This document shows, piece after piece, positions 9,999-55,391 of a stretch of 64,000 nucleotides of DNA. The notes under the pieces are model-generated. The model was not told the origin of the DNA. It did no database searches and saw only the letters and a list, made by a program, of their open reading frames with translations. Position numbers and translations under genes: made by a program. The stretch is taken from the NCBI GenBank assembly GCA_913020445.1, contig CAJWAR010000022.1, positions 1 to 64,000 on the forward strand. Direction: 5' to 3'. Position 1 is the first letter of the stretch. The number at the start of each line of letters is the position of its first letter. The stretch is from an uncultured Rhodospirillaceae bacterium (GTDB lineage: Bacteria; Pseudomonadota; Alphaproteobacteria; Rhodospirillales; UBA2165).

Positions 9999-11435
9999 AT
10001 GTCCTCGAACAAAATTTCCGATCAAGAATACGGCGAAGATCGGGCAACCTGGAAACGGGTGTTTAGCGGTAATTTGCTGATCTATTCAGTGATTATCAAT
10101 CTTGGTATTTTGCTGTTTGCTGTTGATACCTTCGTCATCACGACCATCATGCCGACGGTGATTAAAGATATCGGCGGCACTGAGCTCTATTCATGGCCGG
10201 TGATGATTTACATGGTGGGTGCGATTGCCGGCGCCGCCAGTGCTGGACCGGTGCGCGAAATATTTGGCCGGCGCAATGGCTATGTTATTGCTGGGCTGTT
10301 TTTCCTGATTGGTAATCTCGGCGCTGCCTATGCACCGAATATCGAAGTTCTGATTGCTTGGCGCCTGCTTCAGGGATTGGGCGGTGGCCTCATTATTTCA
10401 CAGTCTTATGGCTTGATCGGTGATATCTACCCGCCCGAACTGCGGACCAGAATTCTCTCGATAATTTCGACGACCTGGGGAGTGGCGACGGTGTTTGGCC
10501 CGGCTTTCGGTGGCATATTTGCCGAGTTTGGTTCGTGGCGCGGTGCGTTTTGGGCGATTGTGCCGTTGGCGCTGATCTTTTGCGGCATGGTTTGGCGCTA
10601 TATCGCGCATTCCACCAGTGAAGCTAAAATCGATAATTTTCCGATCACACGATTAATATTATTTGCGCTCGGAATATTGTGTGTCGGACTTACTTCACAA
10701 ACTGATAACAATGTATACCGTGTTGGCTTAATTATTTCGGCGATCGCGATGGTAACTTATGCGATGGTCCGCGATGCGCATTCCAGCAATCGCATGTTTC
10801 CTAAAAACACGCTTGTGCCGACAACATCTGTCGGCTCGTCTTTTTGGTTTCTGCTGTTTTTTACCTTTACGTTCATTGTCGCCATTCTTTACATGACATT
10901 GTACTTGCAGGTCCTGCACGATCAGACGCCAATCATTGCCGCCTATATCAGCGCCTTATTTTCTTTTACCTGGACCGTCGGGGCACTGTTGGTGGCGTCT
11001 TGGCGAGGACGGGCGGTTTATTTTGCTTTTATTGGCGGTGGCATTTTAATCGTGATGGGCGCGATTGGTCTGACCTTGTTTGCCGTTAACGGGCCGGTGA
11101 TATTAATTGGCGCCTCCTTAGCGGTGATGGGAATGGGGGTCGGCACCTCAAACAATCATGTGATCGCCCTGACCATAGAATGCGCTCAACCGGGCGAAGA
11201 AGCCTTGGTGGCCTCGTCGGTTCAGACCATGCGTACAATGGGCTTGGCATTCGGATCAGCCTTTGCGGGATTGATCGCCAATTCAGCCGGGCTTTCGGAA
11301 GGGGCTACCCCGGACATTGTGGCCCGCGCTGTTGATCTCCTGAACCAGGCCGGAATAGCGCTGGCGATGTTAACTTTATTGTCACTGATTATTTTTTACC
11401 ACTACTATAATCGCGACAAATCTAGTGATCAGTGA
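9999..11435 (+). CDS. MFS transporter, DHA2-like
   Basis: 478 residues, largely hydrophobic, with enough segments for about 14 membrane helices. DTFVITTIMPTVIKDIGG in the first helix and GRRNGYVIAG after helix 2 are the DHA2-type drug/proton antiporter motifs. The start ATG has no close ribosome site (CGGAGG lies about 35 bases upstream), so the exact start is uncertain. The last 7 bases overlap the convergent DUF1244 gene. Divergent pairing with the dioxygenase could mean aromatic-acid transport, but the family suggests efflux. Confidence 0.87.
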   Translation: MSSNKISDQEYGEDRATWKRVFSGNLLIYSVIINLGILLFAVDTFVITTIMPTVIKDIGGTELYSWPVMIYMVGAIAGAASAGPVREIFGRRNGYVIAGLFFLIGNLGAAYAPNIEVLIAWRLLQGLGGGLIISQSYGLIGDIYPPELRTRILSIISTTWGVATVFGPAFGGIFAEFGSWRGAFWAIVPLALIFCGMVWRYIAHSTSEAKIDNFPITRLILFALGILCVGLTSQTDNNVYRVGLIISAIAMVTYAMVRDAHSSNRMFPKNTLVPTTSVGSSFWFLLFFTFTFIVAILYMTLYLQVLHDQTPIIAAYISALFSFTWTVGALLVASWRGRAVYFAFIGGGILIVMGAIGLTLFAVNGPVILIGASLAVMGMGVGTSNNHVIALTIECAQPGEEALVASSVQTMRTMGLAFGSAFAGLIANSAGLSEGATPDIVARAVDLLNQAGIALAMLTLLSLIIFYHYYNRDKSSDQ

Positions 11436-11743
11436 CCACTGATTTTAGCGTGCAGCGGTTTGGTATCTTCAAATTTCTGCTGCTGTTCAGGTGACGCCTT
11501 CTCTTGATGTTTTTCTTTCCATTCATCATACGGCATGCCGTAGACGACTTTGCGGGCTTCATCATAATCCATCTCAACGCCGCGTTCATCGGCCGCCGCC
11601 ATATACCATTTTGATAAGCAATTACGGCAAAAGCCAGCAAGGTTCATGATGTCGATGTTTTGCGCATCGGTGCGTCTTTGCAGATGTTCAACAAGTCCGC
11701 GAAAGGCTGCCGCCTCAAGTTCTGTTCTGGTTTGATCATCCAT
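11429..11743 (-). CDS. DUF1244 protein
   Basis: 104 residues. The conserved DUF1244 core is obvious: AFRGLVEHLQRRTDAQNIDIMNLAGFCRNCLSKWY, with two cysteines in FCRNC, followed by a Glu/Lys-rich tail longer than usual. The fold is a small helical domain; the function is unknown, although the CxxC suggests metal or redox chemistry. It overlaps the MFS gene tail-to-tail by 7 bases. Confidence 0.9.
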   Translation of the reverse strand: MDDQTRTELEAAAFRGLVEHLQRRTDAQNIDIMNLAGFCRNCLSKWYMAAADERGVEMDYDEARKVVYGMPYDEWKEKHQEKASPEQQQKFEDTKPLHAKISGH

Positions 11744-12006: not shown

Positions 12007-15000
12007 ATGGCGAAAAATGCGCCAGATAGTCCAGATCAAAATCCACCGATTGAAGTTGTGCACGATGCTGACAGCGCACCAGATAACGGCAAGCCAGAGA
12101 ACAAACATTCCGGCGTTCAGGATAAATATGAATGGGTAGAGGACAGTAAACCCAATCTCATCGATAGCTTGGTGGCGCCTGAATTTGTGCCGCCCTTTTA
12201 CGCGCGCTATCACTTATTGAGCGTCTTGGCGGCGCTCGCCACCATCGGCTGGCTCGCCGGTTCCGCAATGTTTGTTTTTAATAGCCTCGGTCTGGAAGAT
12301 TTGTCCCAGTTGCTGCCCCACGAGCTAGGTGGTCTCGCTGCCGGTATCGCGACGCCTATTGCTTTGATCTGGATCGTCGTCGCTTTTTTTGAGAAAACCA
12401 GAATCTACCAGGCAGAAACGCGGGCGCTGCGATGGCATTTGCAGCAACTTACCTATCCCGCAGACGGTGCTGAGACCCGCGTCGGTGAAATTACCGAGGC
12501 TTTGCGGTCGCAAACCCAGGCACTCACTAATGTATCCGAAAATGCGACCTTGCGGGCGGCGGAAGCTTCGGATCTCATCAAGCGCCAGACCTTAGCGCTA
12601 TCCGTGGCTTCGGAAGAAGCCAGCATAAAGGCCGATAGTGCAGGTGATAAATTGCGCCAGCAAGCCGAAGATTTGGTCTCGGCATCCGACCGCGCGATTG
12701 CCCGGGCACGGGAAGCCGGCAATGTACTGCATCACCAAAGTCACGATTTGATTAATGTGTCGCAGCAGGCATCCTCCCGCACCGAAGATATCACCAATAC
12801 CTTACAAAAAAGCGGTGAAGAGTTGATGCGGGTGGCAGAGGATTCTTCACGTAAGGCGCACGAGACCGCTGATATGTTTAGAGAACGTTCAGAAAGCTTG
12901 GCGGCGATCTCGGTTGAAGCGGCGGCGCGCGCCGAAAAGATGGGCAGCGATTTGACCACTAATGCGGAGGCATTGTCGGGGGCCACTGAATTGGCGGCAC
13001 AGCGGGTGGAATCGACGACAGAAAATTTGCGCGAACATACGCAAGACATGTCCCGCCGCTCTGACCAAATGACGGCTCAGGCCGACACGGTTGCCGGCAT
13101 GCTGGCCAATCAAGCTGAAAATCTCAATGAAGCAATCGAAAAGGCAACGGCTAAAACCTCGACAATCGTGGAAACGATTAATACCGAGTCTAAGAATTTG
13201 GGCACGACGACTGATCATGTGATGTCGCGGGTAAAAACTGCGAGTGCGGGCCTGGCCGATGACACCAAAGAATTGTTGGTCGCTGGCGCCAATGCGGCAG
13301 AGCAAGTTGATCAGACAGCGATCCAGTATCGTAAACATATCACTGAGTTGGAAGAAACCACTGATCGTGCGTCGGCGCGGGCCCGAGTAGTAGGTTCGCA
13401 GATCGCGGAAGTTAAAGACAATCTGGAGCAAGCTGCCGGAAGCGCAATGGACCAGATCACGGAAGTTTCGCAAACTCTTGAAACTAAAACCGCGGAATTG
13501 TCAGCCAATTCAGAAAAAGCTGTTGGTGAAATTGACGAAGTCGGGGATGCGTTGCAGAAGAAATCAGATCACATGGTCCGCCTCAGCGATTTAGTCGTCC
13601 TGCGATTGGGCAATACGGCAGAGGCAATACGAAAACGTGCCGAAGAGTTGTCGGATACCTCGAAGGAAGTGAATTCACAGATTGATGTGACGACGGAACG
13701 GCTGCATCAGGCGAAATTGGAGCTTAAAGAGGCTTCTGACAACAGCGTCGGTAATGTCGACCGCGTCGCTGCAGCAATGCGCCGTGATCTTCAGGAACTG
13801 ACCCTGGTGGTGGACAATGTCGGAGAAGCTAACAGCGACTATAGTGAGCGGCTGAAAATATTAACCACGGAATCTGATGAAGCGACAACTACAATCCAAC
13901 AACTTAGCGAAAAAATTGGCGATCAAATTAGAGAACTATCAGTCGCCTCAGGAGGTGCCGGGGAAAATATTATCGAAGTCGGCAACAAGCTCGCCGATCA
14001 AACGCGTTTGCTGAACGATGCTTCAGATGCCGCGGTTGAAAAAGTTGCGGAGGTTGGCACGGCGCTGCGCGAGGAGACCTCTAACGTCAGTGATTCATCT
14101 GCCAAAGCAAGCGAACGTTTGCGTTCGATCGGAATTGTGCTTGATCGCCGTGCAATCGAGCTGACGAATGCGGCAGATAATGCCACGGAAAAAGTAAATA
14201 ACGTTGCTGAAATTCTGCGCCAGAAAGCGGTCGATTTATCGAACTCATCCGGCAAAGCGGTTGGCGATATTAACGTCGCTGGTGAAACCATGGAGCATCG
14301 CTCCGAAGAGGTGACGCATGCCGCTGATCGCGCCGCCCGTCTATTGGGCTTGGTCACCGATGCCCTGCGTCAGCAATCAAAGGATCTCAGCCGGACCACG
14401 GATAGCGCGGCAGATCAGATCGAGAATGTTGGTGAGAAATTGCATCAGCGTTCCCGCGAGCTGACCGATATCACCGATGATGCGGTGACGCGGATGGATG
14501 AGACTTGGGAAACGCTTGAGGACCGGGCAGATAGAATGCGCGTCGTCTCGACCGATCTGATTGGTCAGGTGAGCGAGGCTGCGGAGGCTTTGCATGATCG
14601 TTCCAAGGAATTAGCCTCGGCTTCCGAAAGTGCGGTGTCTGATGTTGGCTCGGTTGGCGACACGTTATTGCAGCAATCCCTTGAAGCGGCGACGGCAGCC
14701 GATGAAGCAGCTAATCGCTTGACCAGGATTGCCGAGGATCTGAGCGAGGATTTTGTCGAAATTAAAGATAGCTCGGTTGATACTGAAGAGCGGCTCAATC
14801 GTATGGGGGCGAATTTCCGCCAGCGGGCCGAGGAATTCGCGCAGGCCGCGACGGAGTCAAACACTCACGTCCAGGCCTTTGCTGATGCGCTACTAGAACG
14901 CAGCTCGGAACTTACCGGTGCATCGGACGAAGCGACGGCCAAGGTTGAAGCGGTCGGTGGTGCCTTGCAGGAACGCTCCCGCGAAGTCGCTTTGGCGGTC

Positions 15001-16197
15001 GACCGGGCGGCTAAATTATTGTCGGCGGTGACGTCTGGTTTGCAGCGTCATTCCGATGAGCTTCACGCAACCTCGGACCGGGCGGTTGAGAAATCTCAGG
15101 ATTTGAATGACAATTTGAAATCCGGGGCGGCGGAAATGTCGCGTCTGGCTGAGCAAAGTTCGGAGCGCTTGGAAGAGACCAGCAATGCCGTTCGCCAGCG
15201 CCTTGATGATTTAACGGTCTCCTCGGACCGCGCCATCGCCAGGCTTGAAGGGGCAGCGGACCTCGTCAATGTCCGGGGTGATCATATGTCTGAATCTGCG
15301 CGCATTGCTACAGAGGCGGCATTGACGGCCGGTAAGGCGATGCAGGAAACCGCGCAAACGACATCGGAAGCGGCGGATCAAAATCTCAACAAACTTAAAA
15401 CCATCAGTGATGCGCTGCGCCGCCAAACTCAGGATGTCAGTGAAGCTTCAGACCGCCTGTCCCAGAAAATGGGCGGGTCGGGGGCGGAACTGCGTCAACA
15501 ACTGGAAGACCTCACCAAAACGTTCAATGAGGCTCTCAGCGGCATAAACGCGGTTGGTGAAAATGTCGCCAAACGAGCTGATGAAGCCGCCGATGTGTCT
15601 AACCGGGCAATCTCCAGCATGGAGACTTGGGGTCAGACGATAAAACGTGGCACGGATGATTTGACGGCGGCATCAAGTCAAATGTCGGAAGATACCAAAC
15701 AAGCCAGCGACAGCGTAAAACAACAAACCGCTGATCTATCCAAGACGTCAAAACAGGCGGCGGAGATCACCGAGGCGCTTAAGGATTTAGCTAAAAAATC
15801 CGGCCATGAAGATTTCTTACGGCGGATGGCGCTGGTCTCTGAGGGGCTTGAATCGGTTGCCATTGACATTAATCGTATCATGGAAACCCGGATCACCGAA
15901 GATGATTGGAAGCGTTACAACCGCGGTGAGAAAAGTGTCTTCCTGCGGAAAATTCTCGGTATGCGCAATCGCGCTAAACTCGCCAAGATCAATCAACTCT
16001 ATCGCCAAGATTCAAATTTCCGCGATTATGTTTCACGTTATTTAACTCAGTTTGACGAGTTAATTGAAAGTGCCAAGCGGAGCGGCCAGGAAGGCGCGCT
16101 CGGTGCCGGCTTTATGACATCCGATGCCGGTAAAGTTTATATGGTGCTGCAGTCTGCGTTGGCGCGGGAAAATGGCAGCGACGAGCCGGAAGCTTAA
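12007..16197 (+). CDS. Giant membrane-anchored coiled-coil repeat protein (GPR/RgsE-like architecture)
   Basis: 1396 residues. Layout: acidic cytoplasmic tail 1-66; TM helices near 68-95 and 107-131; a pseudo-repeat 141-165; 44 tandem repeats 166-1261; a 135-residue non-repeat C-terminal domain (DFLRRMALVSEGLE, TEDDWKRYNRGEKSVFLRK, DYVSRYLTQFDELIE). Forty-three repeats are exactly 25 residues; one (616-636) is 21. Within a repeat, core residues fall at 1, 5, 8, 12, 15, 19 and 22. The array has no Pro and no Cys. Two TM segments plus a huge helical region resembles the Agrobacterium growth-pole-ring protein and Sinorhizobium RgsE, over 2000 residues long, which organise polar growth. Homology is inferred from architecture. 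It ends 4 bases from convergent DUF4202. Confidence 0.9.
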   Translation: MAKNAPDSPDQNPPIEVVHDADSAPDNGKPENKHSGVQDKYEWVEDSKPNLIDSLVAPEFVPPFYARYHLLSVLAALATIGWLAGSAMFVFNSLGLEDLSQLLPHELGGLAAGIATPIALIWIVVAFFEKTRIYQAETRALRWHLQQLTYPADGAETRVGEITEALRSQTQALTNVSENATLRAAEASDLIKRQTLALSVASEEASIKADSAGDKLRQQAEDLVSASDRAIARAREAGNVLHHQSHDLINVSQQASSRTEDITNTLQKSGEELMRVAEDSSRKAHETADMFRERSESLAAISVEAAARAEKMGSDLTTNAEALSGATELAAQRVESTTENLREHTQDMSRRSDQMTAQADTVAGMLANQAENLNEAIEKATAKTSTIVETINTESKNLGTTTDHVMSRVKTASAGLADDTKELLVAGANAAEQVDQTAIQYRKHITELEETTDRASARARVVGSQIAEVKDNLEQAAGSAMDQITEVSQTLETKTAELSANSEKAVGEIDEVGDALQKKSDHMVRLSDLVVLRLGNTAEAIRKRAEELSDTSKEVNSQIDVTTERLHQAKLELKEASDNSVGNVDRVAAAMRRDLQELTLVVDNVGEANSDYSERLKILTTESDEATTTIQQLSEKIGDQIRELSVASGGAGENIIEVGNKLADQTRLLNDASDAAVEKVAEVGTALREETSNVSDSSAKASERLRSIGIVLDRRAIELTNAADNATEKVNNVAEILRQKAVDLSNSSGKAVGDINVAGETMEHRSEEVTHAADRAARLLGLVTDALRQQSKDLSRTTDSAADQIENVGEKLHQRSRELTDITDDAVTRMDETWETLEDRADRMRVVSTDLIGQVSEAAEALHDRSKELASASESAVSDVGSVGDTLLQQSLEAATAADEAANRLTRIAEDLSEDFVEIKDSSVDTEERLNRMGANFRQRAEEFAQAATESNTHVQAFADALLERSSELTGASDEATAKVEAVGGALQERSREVALAVDRAAKLLSAVTSGLQRHSDELHATSDRAVEKSQDLNDNLKSGAAEMSRLAEQSSERLEETSNAVRQRLDDLTVSSDRAIARLEGAADLVNVRGDHMSESARIATEAALTAGKAMQETAQTTSEAADQNLNKLKTISDALRRQTQDVSEASDRLSQKMGGSGAELRQQLEDLTKTFNEALSGINAVGENVAKRADEAADVSNRAISSMETWGQTIKRGTDDLTAASSQMSEDTKQASDSVKQQTADLSKTSKQAAEITEALKDLAKKSGHEDFLRRMALVSEGLESVAIDINRIMETRITEDDWKRYNRGEKSVFLRKILGMRNRAKLAKINQLYRQDSNFRDYVSRYLTQFDELIESAKRSGQEGALGAGFMTSDAGKVYMVLQSALARENGSDEPEA
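12502..15789 (+). repeat. Array of 44 in-frame 75-bp coding repeats
   Basis: Tandem repeats covering codons 166-1261. The period is 75 bases, except for one 63-base unit at 13852-13914. At the nucleotide level the units are clearly diverged; only the protein pattern is kept: hydrophobic at 1, small at 5, Leu/Met/Val at 8, Ser/Thr at 12, Ala/Ser at 15, Val/Ile/Leu at 19, Val/Ile/Ala at 22. The sum of unit lengths plus termini equals the full 1396 residues, so the register is exact. Confidence 0.93.
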
Positions 16198-16201
16198 TAA
16201 A

Positions 16202-16783
16202 TCAATCCGCGAGGGCCTTGTTGATCAGCGCCAGTTCCTCTTCTGATAAATCCAGCGTCAGCGCTATCTCATGACCGCGCGGCGTCATTTTTGCCCACGT
16301 CTTTTGAATAATGCCGATCATCTTTGCTTCATCATGCTTGCGGGAAAAATCCAAGAAGTAATTTTCCAGAAATACCAGACAAATGACATCTTCCAAGATT
16401 TGGGCTTGAGGGTCGGATCGCAGTTTTCTTCTCAATAGAAGTTGACGGGTTTTCTCGATTTCGTCGTCACCATAACCGCAGTCTGCCATAATTGCGGCTG
16501 CCTTTTCCGCATGAATGCGATAGAGCGTGGTACGCCACAGATGGTAACCTTTTTTTCCTTCGTCATAATCTGTGCGCGGAAGTTCCCAGCGCTGAATATG
16601 CTGGGCGCGGGCAGCGATTTTTAATGGCTCATCCGCTTCGGGTGCAACCTTTTCCATCCAGGCGCTCATGCGCTGGCCGTAAAGGAGTTCCTTAGGGTAG
16701 CTTTCACCCTCAAATTCTTCGCTATTAGGGTCGCGTGAGTTGGCGGCGTCAATTTTCGTGATCGCGTCATCAAATTGGGACAT
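16202..16783 (-). CDS. DUF4202 protein
   Basis: 193 residues, all helical, with DUF4202 features: AAIxxIDAANSxDPN at the N-terminus, LLYGQRMSAWMEKVAPEADEPLKIAARAQHIQRWELPR (His83-type HIQRW), then YHLWRTTLYRIHAEKA and LEDVICLVFLENYF. The spaced His and Asp residues recall HD-like metal helices, but the reaction is unknown. In many proteobacteria it stands near sulfur or nitrogen genes; here it is convergent with the repeat protein, 4 bases apart, and divergent from the TPR gene. The ribosome site is weak. Confidence 0.87.
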   Translation of the reverse strand: MSQFDDAITKIDAANSRDPNSEEFEGESYPKELLYGQRMSAWMEKVAPEADEPLKIAARAQHIQRWELPRTDYDEGKKGYHLWRTTLYRIHAEKAAAIMADCGYGDDEIEKTRQLLLRRKLRSDPQAQILEDVICLVFLENYFLDFSRKHDEAKMIGIIQKTWAKMTPRGHEIALTLDLSEEELALINKALAD

Positions 16784-50905: not shown

Positions 50906-51720
50906 TTTCTGGCCTCCTCAATTACGCGACGGCCAACTCGGCGCACCATTTGGCGGCGGTATTTAGCGGAAGCATGTATATCTTCGTTATCGCCCAATTC
51001 CCAAGCAAGAGCATTAAGAGCATCATCTATATCGCTATCGGCGAGACCATCCCAGTCCCTAACTTCCGGCTTTCCGGCAACGCCGCCAACGCCAATACGG
51101 ATGTTTTCACCGTCGGCAATCACCGCAATAGCGACAATGGCAAAATCACCCTGCCGTCTGGTGATCTCTTCAAAAGCATGTCCAGCGCTCGGATTTTGCT
51201 TTGGCAGGCGAACCGAGGTTAGCAGTTCGTCGTCTTCCCGGGCTGTCGCCAGCATGCCGGTTTGGAACTCAGATGCGGCTAGAACCCGCTCGCCGCGGTT
51301 GGATTTCAGCACCGCTTCGCCGCCCAATATGGCAAAACACAAAGGCTGCTCGGAGCTTGGATCGGAATGGGCGATGCTGCCGCAAAATGTTCCCTTGGCC
51401 CGGGTTTGAAAATGGCCGACATTGGGTAAGGCATCGACCAGCAGGGATAGATGCTCATTGACATCGGCGGCGGCGATCACTTTGGCTTGCGTAACCGCGG
51501 CAGAAATTTCGACGCTGTTACCGTTCGTTTTGATCTCTTTAAGCTCGTCGAGACCGGAGATATCAATCAGATAGGCCGGTTCAACCAGGCGAAAGTTCAT
51601 CATCGCGATCAGTGATTGCCCACCGGCCAAAATGCGCGCGTTTTCACCGTGTTCAGCCAAACAGCTCAGCACATGATCGACAGATTCGGCGCGGACGTAA
51701 TTAAAATTATTTGGTTTCAT
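50893..51720 (-). CDS. Molybdenum hydroxylase FAD subunit (CoxM-like)
   Basis: 275 residues. FAD loop ARILAGGQSLIAMMNFRLVEP near 28-48, and TFCGSIAHSDPSSEQPL (TIGG-like second loop) near 111-127. No 4Fe-4S insertion as in 4-hydroxybenzoyl-CoA reductase HcrB. Binds between the hydroxylase and the external acceptor. It shares one base (TGATG) with the Mo subunit's stop. Confidence 0.93.
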   Translation of the reverse strand: MKPNNFNYVRAESVDHVLSCLAEHGENARILAGGQSLIAMMNFRLVEPAYLIDISGLDELKEIKTNGNSVEISAAVTQAKVIAAADVNEHLSLLVDALPNVGHFQTRAKGTFCGSIAHSDPSSEQPLCFAILGGEAVLKSNRGERVLAASEFQTGMLATAREDDELLTSVRLPKQNPSAGHAFEEITRRQGDFAIVAIAVIADGENIRIGVGGVAGKPEVRDWDGLADSDIDDALNALAWELGDNEDIHASAKYRRQMVRRVGRRVIEEARKCRS

Positions 51721-54701
51721 CAGCCGGCCCCCAGGAATTTAAGCAGTCGAGACCACCAAGACCCTGCTGCATCGCCAGCATTGGCATCACCACCTTCGAT
51801 CTGAGCAATCAGGCGTTTGAAGAACTGATCAACCAGGACCCGCGAGGCACCATCCAGCATGCGACCGCCAATGGCTGCTACCTTACCTGTGATTTCAACT
51901 TCGTAATCGTAATCAACGCGCGTGCCGCCATCCACTGCAGTCAAGGTTACACGACCTCCTCCAGAAGACGAACCTAACGGACCGGTCATGCCACCACCCA
52001 AAATAACTGAGTCGGGTGGGTGAAGATCGCTTAATTTAACATGCGCTTGGAAACGGCCTTTGACGGCACCGACACCAATCGAAATATCCGCAGTGTAACT
52101 ATTCTCACCGACCAGATCCAATTCGTGACACCCCGGAATAACGGCGGCCAATTTAACCGGGTCGAGAAGGGTATCCCACACTTCTGTTGGCGGCACCGGT
52201 ACAATTGCCTGTCCGCTACCAGATAAGCCGCGGCCGGATTTAGGCTTAGATGTGGCTGGTTTAGCGTCAGCTATACTTTTAGGAGCCGCTGGTTCGTCGT
52301 CATCAATCAGCGACATTAGTTTCGATGGGCTCAGCGGCAGCTGTAAATCCCTGATACCAATGGCATCGGATACCGCATTGGCGACACAAACCGGCGTGCT
52401 CATGACATTACCTTCACCGATCCCCTTGGCGCCGAGCGGGGTAAAAGGCTCCGGCGTTACCATATGAAGAATCTGCGGCTCCGGTACTTCGGGTGCGGTT
52501 GGGCAGAGATAATCGGCGAAGGTGCCGGACAGAAAACTGCCATCTTCGCTATAGACAAATTCCTCGCTCAAAGCGATGCCGAGCCCCCAGCCAAAGGCGC
52601 CATAAACCTGACCATCGGCCAGCAGCGGATTCAAGATATTGCCGGAATCATGCATCGTCACATATTTATCGATGCGTACCTCGCCGGTAACTTTGTCAAC
52701 TTCGAGACCACAAATATCAAAAACAAAACCATAGGTCAGTGAGGTATTGATCTGGTCCTTATCGTTCGGCGGTTCCAACTCGGGGGGTGACCAGGTTGCG
52801 GTTTCGGTGATGCCGGGCGCCATATCGGCCGGCAATTCACCGGGCGACCAGTGGGTCGTGCCGGCAACCCGGCTGAAGCGCAGGGTGTTTTCAGGATTGC
52901 CTTTGGCAAAGACCTGACCACCGGCAAATTCAACGTCTTCGGCCGGCACGTTCAAGGTCTGCGCGGCGATATCGGCGAGTTTCGCCCGCACCCGTTTGGC
53001 CGCCATTTGCGCCGAGACCACGGTTGAAGATGAGAACCGGCTGGAATAATTACCGGTCGCTATCGACCACGGGTCGCGCTGGGTATCCCGTTCCATATTG
53101 ACGATGATGTCTTCGGGCGTCAGGCCCATTTCATCGGCAACGATTTGGGCCAGAACCGTGGCGTGGCCTTGACCTTGGGGGATGCTGTCTGCCGTCACGC
53201 TAACCGTACCGAGAGGATCAATGTTGACTGTCGCAATGGCGACATTGCCGCCTTTGGGGCCGGCTTTTTTACGTTCCTCGACCGTATTGATGGTGCTGAG
53301 ATAGCCCATATTGGACTGTGCCGGCTCAACAACCGCGGCATAGCCGATACCGTAGAGCTTACCTTCAGCCCGCATGTCATCCCGGTGTTTTTTAAGCTCG
53401 GCCAGTTTGCCTTCGTTCTCGCTTATTTCGAGCGCCTGCTGATAATCGCCGGAACCGATTAAAGCACCGGCAGCAGCGCGGTAGGGAAAGGCGTCTGCCG
53501 GAATAAGATTTTTCTTGATGACATCAAGAGGATCCAGGCCGAGTTCAACGGCGATTGTATGGATCAGGCGTTCGAGCCCGTAATAAATCTGCGGCCCGCC
53601 AAAGCCACGCACCATGCCGGAGGGCGTCTTGTTGGTCATCACCAGATTATTGATGATCGTCATGTTCGGCACGTCATAGGCGCCGGTCATAATGCCGTGC
53701 TGGCGATAGAGCGGTCCCGGCATCGGCGGCCGGAGATAAGCGCCGTAATCATCCCATTGCTCAAAATGCAGACCAATGATTTTGCCGTCATTCATCACCG
53801 CGGCTTTGGCTTCAATGACCCGGTTGGGGGCGGCGATGGCAGCGGTTAAATGCTCCAGCCGGTCCTCAACCCATTTGATCGGCCGGCCAACTTTACGCGA
53901 TGCCACACACATCAAGACGACGTAGGGAAAGATCGCCTGTTTAACGCCAAAACCGCCGCCGGAATAAGCCGGCGACCGCATGCGTAATTGTGAGCCCTTA
54001 CACCTGAGCGCTTTCGACATCACGGGGTGAACCGTAAACGGGCCTTGGAAGTTCGAGAGGATATCGTAGCTTTCTTCGCCCGGCAGGTAATTGGCGACGA
54101 CGACAAAACCCTCGAGCGGCGTCTGAGAATTGCGCGGATAGTCGATGGTGTTTTCAATAATCCGATCAGCCTCGGCAAAGGCTTTTTCCGGCTCGCCGTA
54201 GGAAAAATCGCGGCGCGAAACGACATTGGTGCCGGCGGCGGGATGCACCAGCACAGCGTCTTCCTGAGCCGCATCCATGGTGCCAATAATGGCTTCGATG
54301 GGATTATATTTAACCTCAATGTGGTCGAGCGCGTCTTCCGCCAAATAGCGATCGTCGGCAATAACGACAGCGACTGCTTCGCCGACAAAGCGCACCCGGT
54401 CAACCGCCAGGCTCCACTGATCCAGTGGTACTCTGAGGACAATCAGAAATGGCTCGGTCAGTTCTTTGATATCCTGACCGGTTAAAACTGCATGAACACC
54501 AGGCTGCTTCTCGGCTGCAGCAACATCAATCGAGGTAATTTCAGCATGAGCGTGGGGAGAGCGTAAGATAGCCGCGTGCAAAGTGCCGACCGGAACCGGA
54601 ATGTCATCGGTGTAGGCGGCAGCACCCCGCAGCAAAGTTGCGTCTTCAATCCGTTCAATCGGTTGGCCGAGATATTTTAGGGGCGATGATGTTTCGGTCA
54701 T
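51720..54701 (-). CDS. Molybdenum hydroxylase large subunit fused to a CoxG-like domain
   Basis: 993 residues. About 1-790 is the XDH/CoxL-type molybdenum-cofactor subunit: RIEDATLLRGAAAYTDD, PAYSGGGFGVK, GMVRGFGGPQIYYGLER and the catalytic Glu in GAKGIGEGNVMSTPV. It lacks the AYxCSFR loop of CO dehydrogenase. After a linker rich in Ala/Lys/Pro, about 815-970 is a CoxG/SRPBCC domain (GSGQAIVPVPPTEVWDTLLDP, VIPGCHELDLVG). CoxG is normally a separate protein that helps anchor or mature the enzyme; here it is on the chain. Probably hydroxylates an aromatic or N-heterocyclic substrate. Confidence 0.92.
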   Translation of the reverse strand: MTETSSPLKYLGQPIERIEDATLLRGAAAYTDDIPVPVGTLHAAILRSPHAHAEITSIDVAAAEKQPGVHAVLTGQDIKELTEPFLIVLRVPLDQWSLAVDRVRFVGEAVAVVIADDRYLAEDALDHIEVKYNPIEAIIGTMDAAQEDAVLVHPAAGTNVVSRRDFSYGEPEKAFAEADRIIENTIDYPRNSQTPLEGFVVVANYLPGEESYDILSNFQGPFTVHPVMSKALRCKGSQLRMRSPAYSGGGFGVKQAIFPYVVLMCVASRKVGRPIKWVEDRLEHLTAAIAAPNRVIEAKAAVMNDGKIIGLHFEQWDDYGAYLRPPMPGPLYRQHGIMTGAYDVPNMTIINNLVMTNKTPSGMVRGFGGPQIYYGLERLIHTIAVELGLDPLDVIKKNLIPADAFPYRAAAGALIGSGDYQQALEISENEGKLAELKKHRDDMRAEGKLYGIGYAAVVEPAQSNMGYLSTINTVEERKKAGPKGGNVAIATVNIDPLGTVSVTADSIPQGQGHATVLAQIVADEMGLTPEDIIVNMERDTQRDPWSIATGNYSSRFSSSTVVSAQMAAKRVRAKLADIAAQTLNVPAEDVEFAGGQVFAKGNPENTLRFSRVAGTTHWSPGELPADMAPGITETATWSPPELEPPNDKDQINTSLTYGFVFDICGLEVDKVTGEVRIDKYVTMHDSGNILNPLLADGQVYGAFGWGLGIALSEEFVYSEDGSFLSGTFADYLCPTAPEVPEPQILHMVTPEPFTPLGAKGIGEGNVMSTPVCVANAVSDAIGIRDLQLPLSPSKLMSLIDDDEPAAPKSIADAKPATSKPKSGRGLSGSGQAIVPVPPTEVWDTLLDPVKLAAVIPGCHELDLVGENSYTADISIGVGAVKGRFQAHVKLSDLHPPDSVILGGGMTGPLGSSSGGGRVTLTAVDGGTRVDYDYEVEITGKVAAIGGRMLDGASRVLVDQFFKRLIAQIEGGDANAGDAAGSWWSRLLKFLGAG

Positions 54702-55170: not shown

Positions 55171-55296
55171 TCAGTTATAAGGGGGCAGGACAGGTGATTA
55201 ACCTCTCTAATCCGGTGCCAAAATCGTGATGGTTCTCATTTAGTACCTACTTGCAAAACCTCAGAAACCTAGTAAAACCGCCCCTGTAAATGGTGA

Positions 55297-55391
55297 GGAG
55301 GGGAAGCAGTCCCGGTGGGCTGGCCGGTCTTCAAAACCGGTGAAGGGCGTCAGACGCTCTTAGTAGGTTCGACTCCTACTCTCTTCCGCCA
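55297..55391 (+). tRNA. selC: Selenocysteine tRNA, anticodon TCA
   Basis: 95 bases including an encoded CCA (55389-55391), the E. coli length. The acceptor stem is the Sec-type 8 bp: GGAGGGGA (55297-55304) with TCTCTTCC (55380-55387), two G-U pairs. The D stem is long. The anticodon stem CCGGT/ACCGG (55324-55340) holds loop CTTCAAA with TCA at 55331-55333. A long variable arm and the T loop GTTCGACT follow. It lets SelA make Sec-tRNA and SelB read UGA. It is 20 kb from selA-selB. Confidence 0.97.

Follow-up and report, generated by a model that had tools for sequence, protein, structure and literature searches.

The closest described systems are RgsE of Sinorhizobium meliloti, GPR of Agrobacterium and TipN of Caulobacter, which organise other machinery at the cell pole or future pole. 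RgsE is found at the growing pole, has TolQ, RgsA and RgsS as interaction partners, and is the only one for which the cytoplasmic side has been verified (PMC7327166). GPR (Atu1348, 2115 aa) is 42% identical to RgsE (PMC7327166), and a growth-pole ring is known for GPR only. Removal of the last 10 residues of GPR results in a poorly working protein and removal of 221 residues in a non-functional one (PMC8262873), defects that fit an essential C-terminal domain. The Rhizobiales are without MreB, and the similarity of GPR to TipN has been mentioned (PMC8546619). Distant homologues of RgsE are also known from Rhodospirillales and Emcibacterales, without the other Rgs proteins, and a different role has been raised for these non-rhizobial homologues (PMC7327166).

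In this work, a related gene is described from the window, a stretch of 64,000 nucleotides from an uncultured Rhodospirillaceae bacterium whose genome holds a single copy of it. Its product is probably (with a probability of roughly 0.6) a GPR/RgsE/TipN-family pole scaffold that is anchored in the membrane and consists of a fixed-reach rod and a C-terminal domain (CTD) that binds a partner. The features of the locus, together with the Hpt-domain genes of relatives discussed below, are collected in Table 1.

Table 1. Features of the rod gene and its surroundings in the window, and Hpt-domain genes at other loci of the family
Feature	Position	Strand	Remarks
Whole gene, GPR/RgsE/TipN-family membrane-anchored coiled-coil protein	12007..16197	+	1396 aa, ATG to stop
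Membrane helix 1	12199..12303	+	residues 65-99; hydropathy, AF2 helix, conserved positions
Membrane helix 2 and following helix	12316..12450	+	residues 104-148; conserved positions, AF2, alignable with RgsE
LLPHE motif			starts the helix of residues 104-148
LTYP hinge			residues 148-151, after the helix
44-repeat array	12502..15789	+	residues 166-1261 = 1096 residues; 43 x 25 + 1 x 21; best-scoring register
Sole 21-residue repeat	13777..13839	+	best fit at residues 591-611; units 16-18 score nearly equal
CTD	15790..16194	+	residues 1262-1396; conserved core 1269-1387
DUF1244 neighbour, divergent	11429..11743	-	conserved beside the gene in Rhodospirillales relatives
DUF4202 neighbour, convergent	16202..16783	-	
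Hpt-domain gene, L173	5087-5455		
Hpt-domain gene, L174	5713-6081		
Hpt-domain gene, L175	7649-7942		
Hpt-domain gene near the family gene			L081, L084, L085, L087, L187, L188, L195, L196, L199, L202

AlphaFold2 (residues 58-282, 41 sequences; mean pLDDT 86.9) predicts helices at residues 65-99 and 104-148, followed by a continuous helix at 153-281 (pLDDT about 90) that runs into the repeat array, within which (residues 166-1261) neither Pro nor Cys occurs. Repeat position 1 is Leu/Ile/Val, position 8 is Leu, position 15 is Ala, and positions 19 and 22 are Val/Leu/Ile/Ala; these five core positions are hydrophobic in 81-100% of cases, and Ser/Ala/Thr predominate at core positions 5 and 12. The core-position hydropathy of the array is 644 versus -96 +/- 24 for shuffled sequence, and the identity at lag 25 is 0.204 versus 0.082 +/- 0.008 after shuffling, with values of 0.20-0.21 at lags 25, 50, 75 and 100. 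Over residues 161-1250, the Fourier power is 143.6 at 25/7 (3.571), 0.2 at 3.5 and 0.4 at 3.667. Tandem repeats at the DNA level were not found across the array, indicating that the array is old. A rise of 0.15 nm per residue gives the array a length of about 164 nm as one continuous helix. For an extended helix of 1700 residues, 600 nm is given in PMC8262873; 0.15 nm per residue results in about 255 nm.

The original prediction had been made from the letters of this DNA, and its 44 back-to-back repeats over 1096 residues without Pro or Cys are borne out by the register fit. The two-helix anchor and C-terminal domain that it placed on either side of the array are agreed upon by hydropathy, AF2 and homology, and its continuous helix of about 160 nm is close to the length calculated here and in line with the unbroken AF2 helix. 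It had also proposed a unit of 25 residues, composed of three heptads and one stutter, and a check of the coiled-coil periodicity. The 25/7 period is the strongest by far and the unit holds for 43 repeats, but one repeat has 21 residues, with the four-residue stutter missing.

The CTD carries the motifs SxAIDIxR, WxRYxxGDxxxF, FRxYVxRYxxQF and SDxGKVYxLL and is matched by no Pfam model. A profile search of the PDB provided no relative (the best hit, PrsA at E=0.017, was judged to be chance), and Foldseek found no match in the PDB at E<0.001 for the CTD model, the confidence of which is modest (pLDDT 70.8). A CTD search matches 18/24 genomes of the host's own family and 106/289 sampled Alphaproteobacteria, and the CTD profile is present in 109 of these 289, nearly always as a single copy. 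Full-length members range from 364 to 2743 aa and have hydrophobic N-terminal helices, then a coil, and the CTD at the extreme end. Among the named relatives are MAGs of marine Rhodospirillaceae, the best of them at 97% in the CTD, as well as Kiloniella, Pelagibius, Hwanghaeella, Rhodovibrio and others, and the host of the window is accordingly a marine bacterium of Rhodospirillales type. The uncharacterised homologues (Kiloniella, Pelagibius, Rhodovibrio, Sphingomonas and others) have the same three parts, mostly with a period near 25/7, but their fixed coil lengths differ from that of the window protein. In one genome of the same order (G367; L191, L192, L193), three CTD proteins were observed; one has 743 aa, and the other two, each of 332 aa, match the CTD weakly.

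Using tblastn with the CTD, a 'kinesin'-annotated gene of S. meliloti was found (L173 6073-12342, 2089 aa), adjoining the cytochrome bc1 genes. This gene was taken as RgsE because the length of RgsE is 2089 (PMC7327166). The CTD of the window protein is 32% identical to that of RgsE over 111 aa (E=2e-18). The CTD profile, from which RgsE had been left out, matches RgsE with 133.5 bits (E=1.7e-39). In the membrane region, BLASTP aligns segment 70-270 with RgsE (E=4e-5); the N-terminal regions of the two proteins align nearly without gaps, and the P and RV positions after the second membrane helix (TM2) are common to both. These matches confirm the homology of both termini to RgsE and rule out a convergent, unrelated coiled coil. 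The architecture of a two-helix N-terminal anchor, a long coil and a homologous CTD at the very end is shared with RgsE and, by published description, with GPR, in which the C-terminal region is also required for function. The 25-residue repeat that had been predicted as part of this shared architecture is not shared, as the best period of RgsE is 3.654 versus 3.571 in the window protein. The coil between the same anchors is also 1.6 times longer in RgsE (1782 versus 1136 residues), a Pro-rich stretch precedes its CTD, an Hpt gene is its divergent neighbour, and its host is an MreB-less polar grower. Coil periods of 3.65-3.66, near 11/3, were observed in RgsE and in the family genes of L081, L087 and L199, and the twist of the coil appears to have changed sense within one family. 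The claim that the protein lies outside the described rhizobial setting needs to be qualified, as distant RgsE homologues had been reported for the order (PMC7327166).

The relation to TipN was studied in Caulobacteraceae genomes located with the Caulobacter MreB sequence 4cze, which we take to be MreB of C. crescentus, as query. In two of three genomes tested, the CTD profile matches only this TipN type of gene, with one weak hit (E about 2e-6) in the C-terminal end of a coiled-coil protein that has two TM helices. The MreB of another genome, G481, is 100% identical to 4cze, and the CTD-bearing protein of G481 (L236) has 882 aa from its ATG. As this is the length of TipN (PMC13170164), L236 was taken as Caulobacter TipN. 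Its match to the CTD family profile (E=3e-11) is weak and lies mainly in the last 70 residues. TipN resembles the window protein in its two TM helices, its coil and, less surely, in a diverged CTD as the last 70-110 residues, but differs in its shorter coil, its long Pro-rich N-terminus and the weak CTD similarity. The GPR-TipN link was already known, and the shared CTD may be regarded as added, weak evidence from sequence for it.

The coil length, counted from the Pro after TM2 (P151) to a conserved Asp of the CTD (D1287), is 1136 residues in the window protein and exactly 1136 in 19 other genomes (counted per genome, second locus ids of the same genomes not being counted again). Of the 15 proteins analysed from the host's own family, 12 belong to this group, and its other seven members are more distant (L107, L112, L117, L123-L126). 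Within it, the ungapped coil identity to the window protein decreases from 90% to about 24%, and the complete proteins have between 1376 and 1440 residues owing to differences in their tails. The own-family set (L053-L066) spans several genera, and 11 of the 15 coil alignments are free of indels. The indels observed are a 15-residue deletion in L055, a 33-residue insertion and a 4-residue deletion in L059, and a 4-residue deletion at the same place in L064, again converting a 25-mer to a 21-mer. All 19 proteins tested, the window protein among them, carry the short repeat at unit 15-19. At 40-56% identity, the coil has about 0.3 indels per 1000 residues versus 2.5-5 gap openings per 1000 in neighbouring genes, a comparison that is indicative only, given the different aligners and small numbers, and given a value of 3.0 from blastp when the giant protein is aligned in full, with its tails and repeats. 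Other fixed lengths are 594 (seven Kiloniella-like entries), 598 (four Pelagibius/Denitrobaculum-like entries) and 846 (seven others), with a lower weight, as some of these entries are near-identical in sequence. Across clades, the coil varies between 361 and 2427 residues in length, with no quantisation into 25-residue steps (R=0.02).

The simplest reading is that the coil length is under selection. Another cause of the few indels could be that coiled coils tolerate them badly, but whole 25-residue units could then still come and go, and no such change occurs among the proteins with 1136 residues. More tentatively, and at odds clearly below even, the protein could be a molecular ruler or strut, in which selection would keep the residue number of the rod rather than its sequence, giving each clade a fixed reach (about 164 nm here), so that the partner of the CTD would be kept a defined distance away from the membrane anchor.

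In the pole scaffold that we favour, the two-helix hairpin would anchor the protein in the inner membrane, and a short LTYP hinge would lead into one uninterrupted, cytoplasmic coiled-coil rod of 44 units and about 164 nm, with the CTD docking a partner at its far end. The Leu/Val/Ala stripe corresponds to that of a coiled coil whose left-handed twist is small (7 turns per 25 residues), and lateral pairing of at least two chains is therefore probable. By analogy with RgsE/GPR and TipN, the scaffold would most likely be located at the cell pole or future pole and organise other machinery. The steps that rest on data are the homology of both ends, the unbroken periodicity, the predicted helix and the conserved length, whereas oligomerisation, topology, polar location, clients and a functional role of the length are inferred. 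The occurrence of PopZ and MreB in the host also speaks for a pole scaffold. Against it are the missing Hpt neighbour, the lack of other Rgs proteins in non-rhizobial orders (PMC7327166), a coil twist unlike that of RgsE, the weak TipN CTD match and the modest confidence of the CTD model.

The Hpt point concerns a small Hpt-domain gene that is seen immediately upstream of the family gene, in divergent orientation, in genomes of Sinorhizobium, Shinella and Sphingomonas and in several others. This suggests a phosphorelay link for the family, which is not mentioned in the cited RgsE/GPR/TipN papers. No Hpt gene is present near the window's rod gene, and the link was therefore left out of the function of the window protein. 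A conserved operon was also considered and rejected: DUF1244, DUF4202, a heme A synthase-like gene and others in relatives look like chromosomal context rather than a pathway, and the DUF1244 neighbour is probably functionally unlinked to the rod gene. Elsewhere in the window, a tRNA-SeC gene is predicted by ARAGORN (55296-55387), and a 993-aa ORF (51720-54701) encodes a molybdopterin-binding CO/xanthine dehydrogenase-type large subunit fused to a CoxG domain.

A more specific role, as a TipN-like new-pole landmark that positions the flagellum and the chromosome-segregation machinery in an MreB-using cell, is possible but rather doubtful. It would fit the architecture and diverged CTD common to TipN and a host with both PopZ and a canonical MreB (G000:C16, 521.7 bits). 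Across the class, the family gene is associated with FliF (77/109 versus 86/180, OR 2.6, p=1.5e-4, not corrected for phylogeny), and in the host's own family all 13 FliF-positive genomes have the rod gene. However, FliF has no match in the window's genome (95% complete) or in the gene-bearing close relatives G019, G020 and G022, these genomes being incomplete. This disfavours a purely flagellar role and rules out a strict flagellar link, so that flagellum placement would not be the sole role; in addition, the CTD is far closer to RgsE than to TipN.

It is unlikely that the protein is a polar growth organiser exactly as GPR/RgsE, forming a ring at the growing pole that directs peptidoglycan synthesis, even though both of its ends are homologous to RgsE and the C-terminus of GPR is essential (PMC8262873). 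MreB is present in the host and lacking in Rhizobiales (PMC8546619), indicating that a polar-growth role is not simply transferable, although an MreB-less host growing from one pole is a matter of context and no criterion of sequence; the other Rgs proteins are reported absent outside the Rhizobiales (PMC7327166), and the coil period differs from that of RgsE. An intermediate-filament-like or crescentin-like cytoskeletal rod setting the shape along the cell body would explain why the coiled coil is long and regular and has a single conserved break in phase. This is very improbable given the membrane hairpin and the terminal CTD homologous to polar proteins, and no filament-family match was found in Pfam or NCBIfam. 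The least credible alternative is an apolipoprotein-like amphipathic helix on membrane lipid, as proposed for GPR, since its one PF01442 match (32.5 bits) is far under the family cut-off of 90 and the power at 11/3 is 0.4 versus 143.6 at 25/7. The window protein thus has neither the 11/22-residue amphipathic repeat and above-cut-off score of Apolipoprotein A1/A4/E nor the multiple PF01442 matches that cover most of GPR/RgsE; such matches probably reflect coil composition rather than providing a true homology criterion.

For a pole scaffold of the GPR/RgsE/TipN kind, the fixed coil length is what is new here, whereas the Rhodospirillales homologues of RgsE (PMC7327166) and the GPR-TipN similarity (PMC8546619) were already known. 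One unnamed CTD links GPR/RgsE and, more weakly, TipN to many alphaproteobacterial proteins that lack annotation, and scaffolds of this kind are not confined to MreB-less polar growers. An exact length retained while coil identity is as low as about 24-30% is a signature, and an unusual one, of a rod that encodes length; if pole scaffolds measure distance, the gain or loss of whole repeats should shift a measurable spacing.
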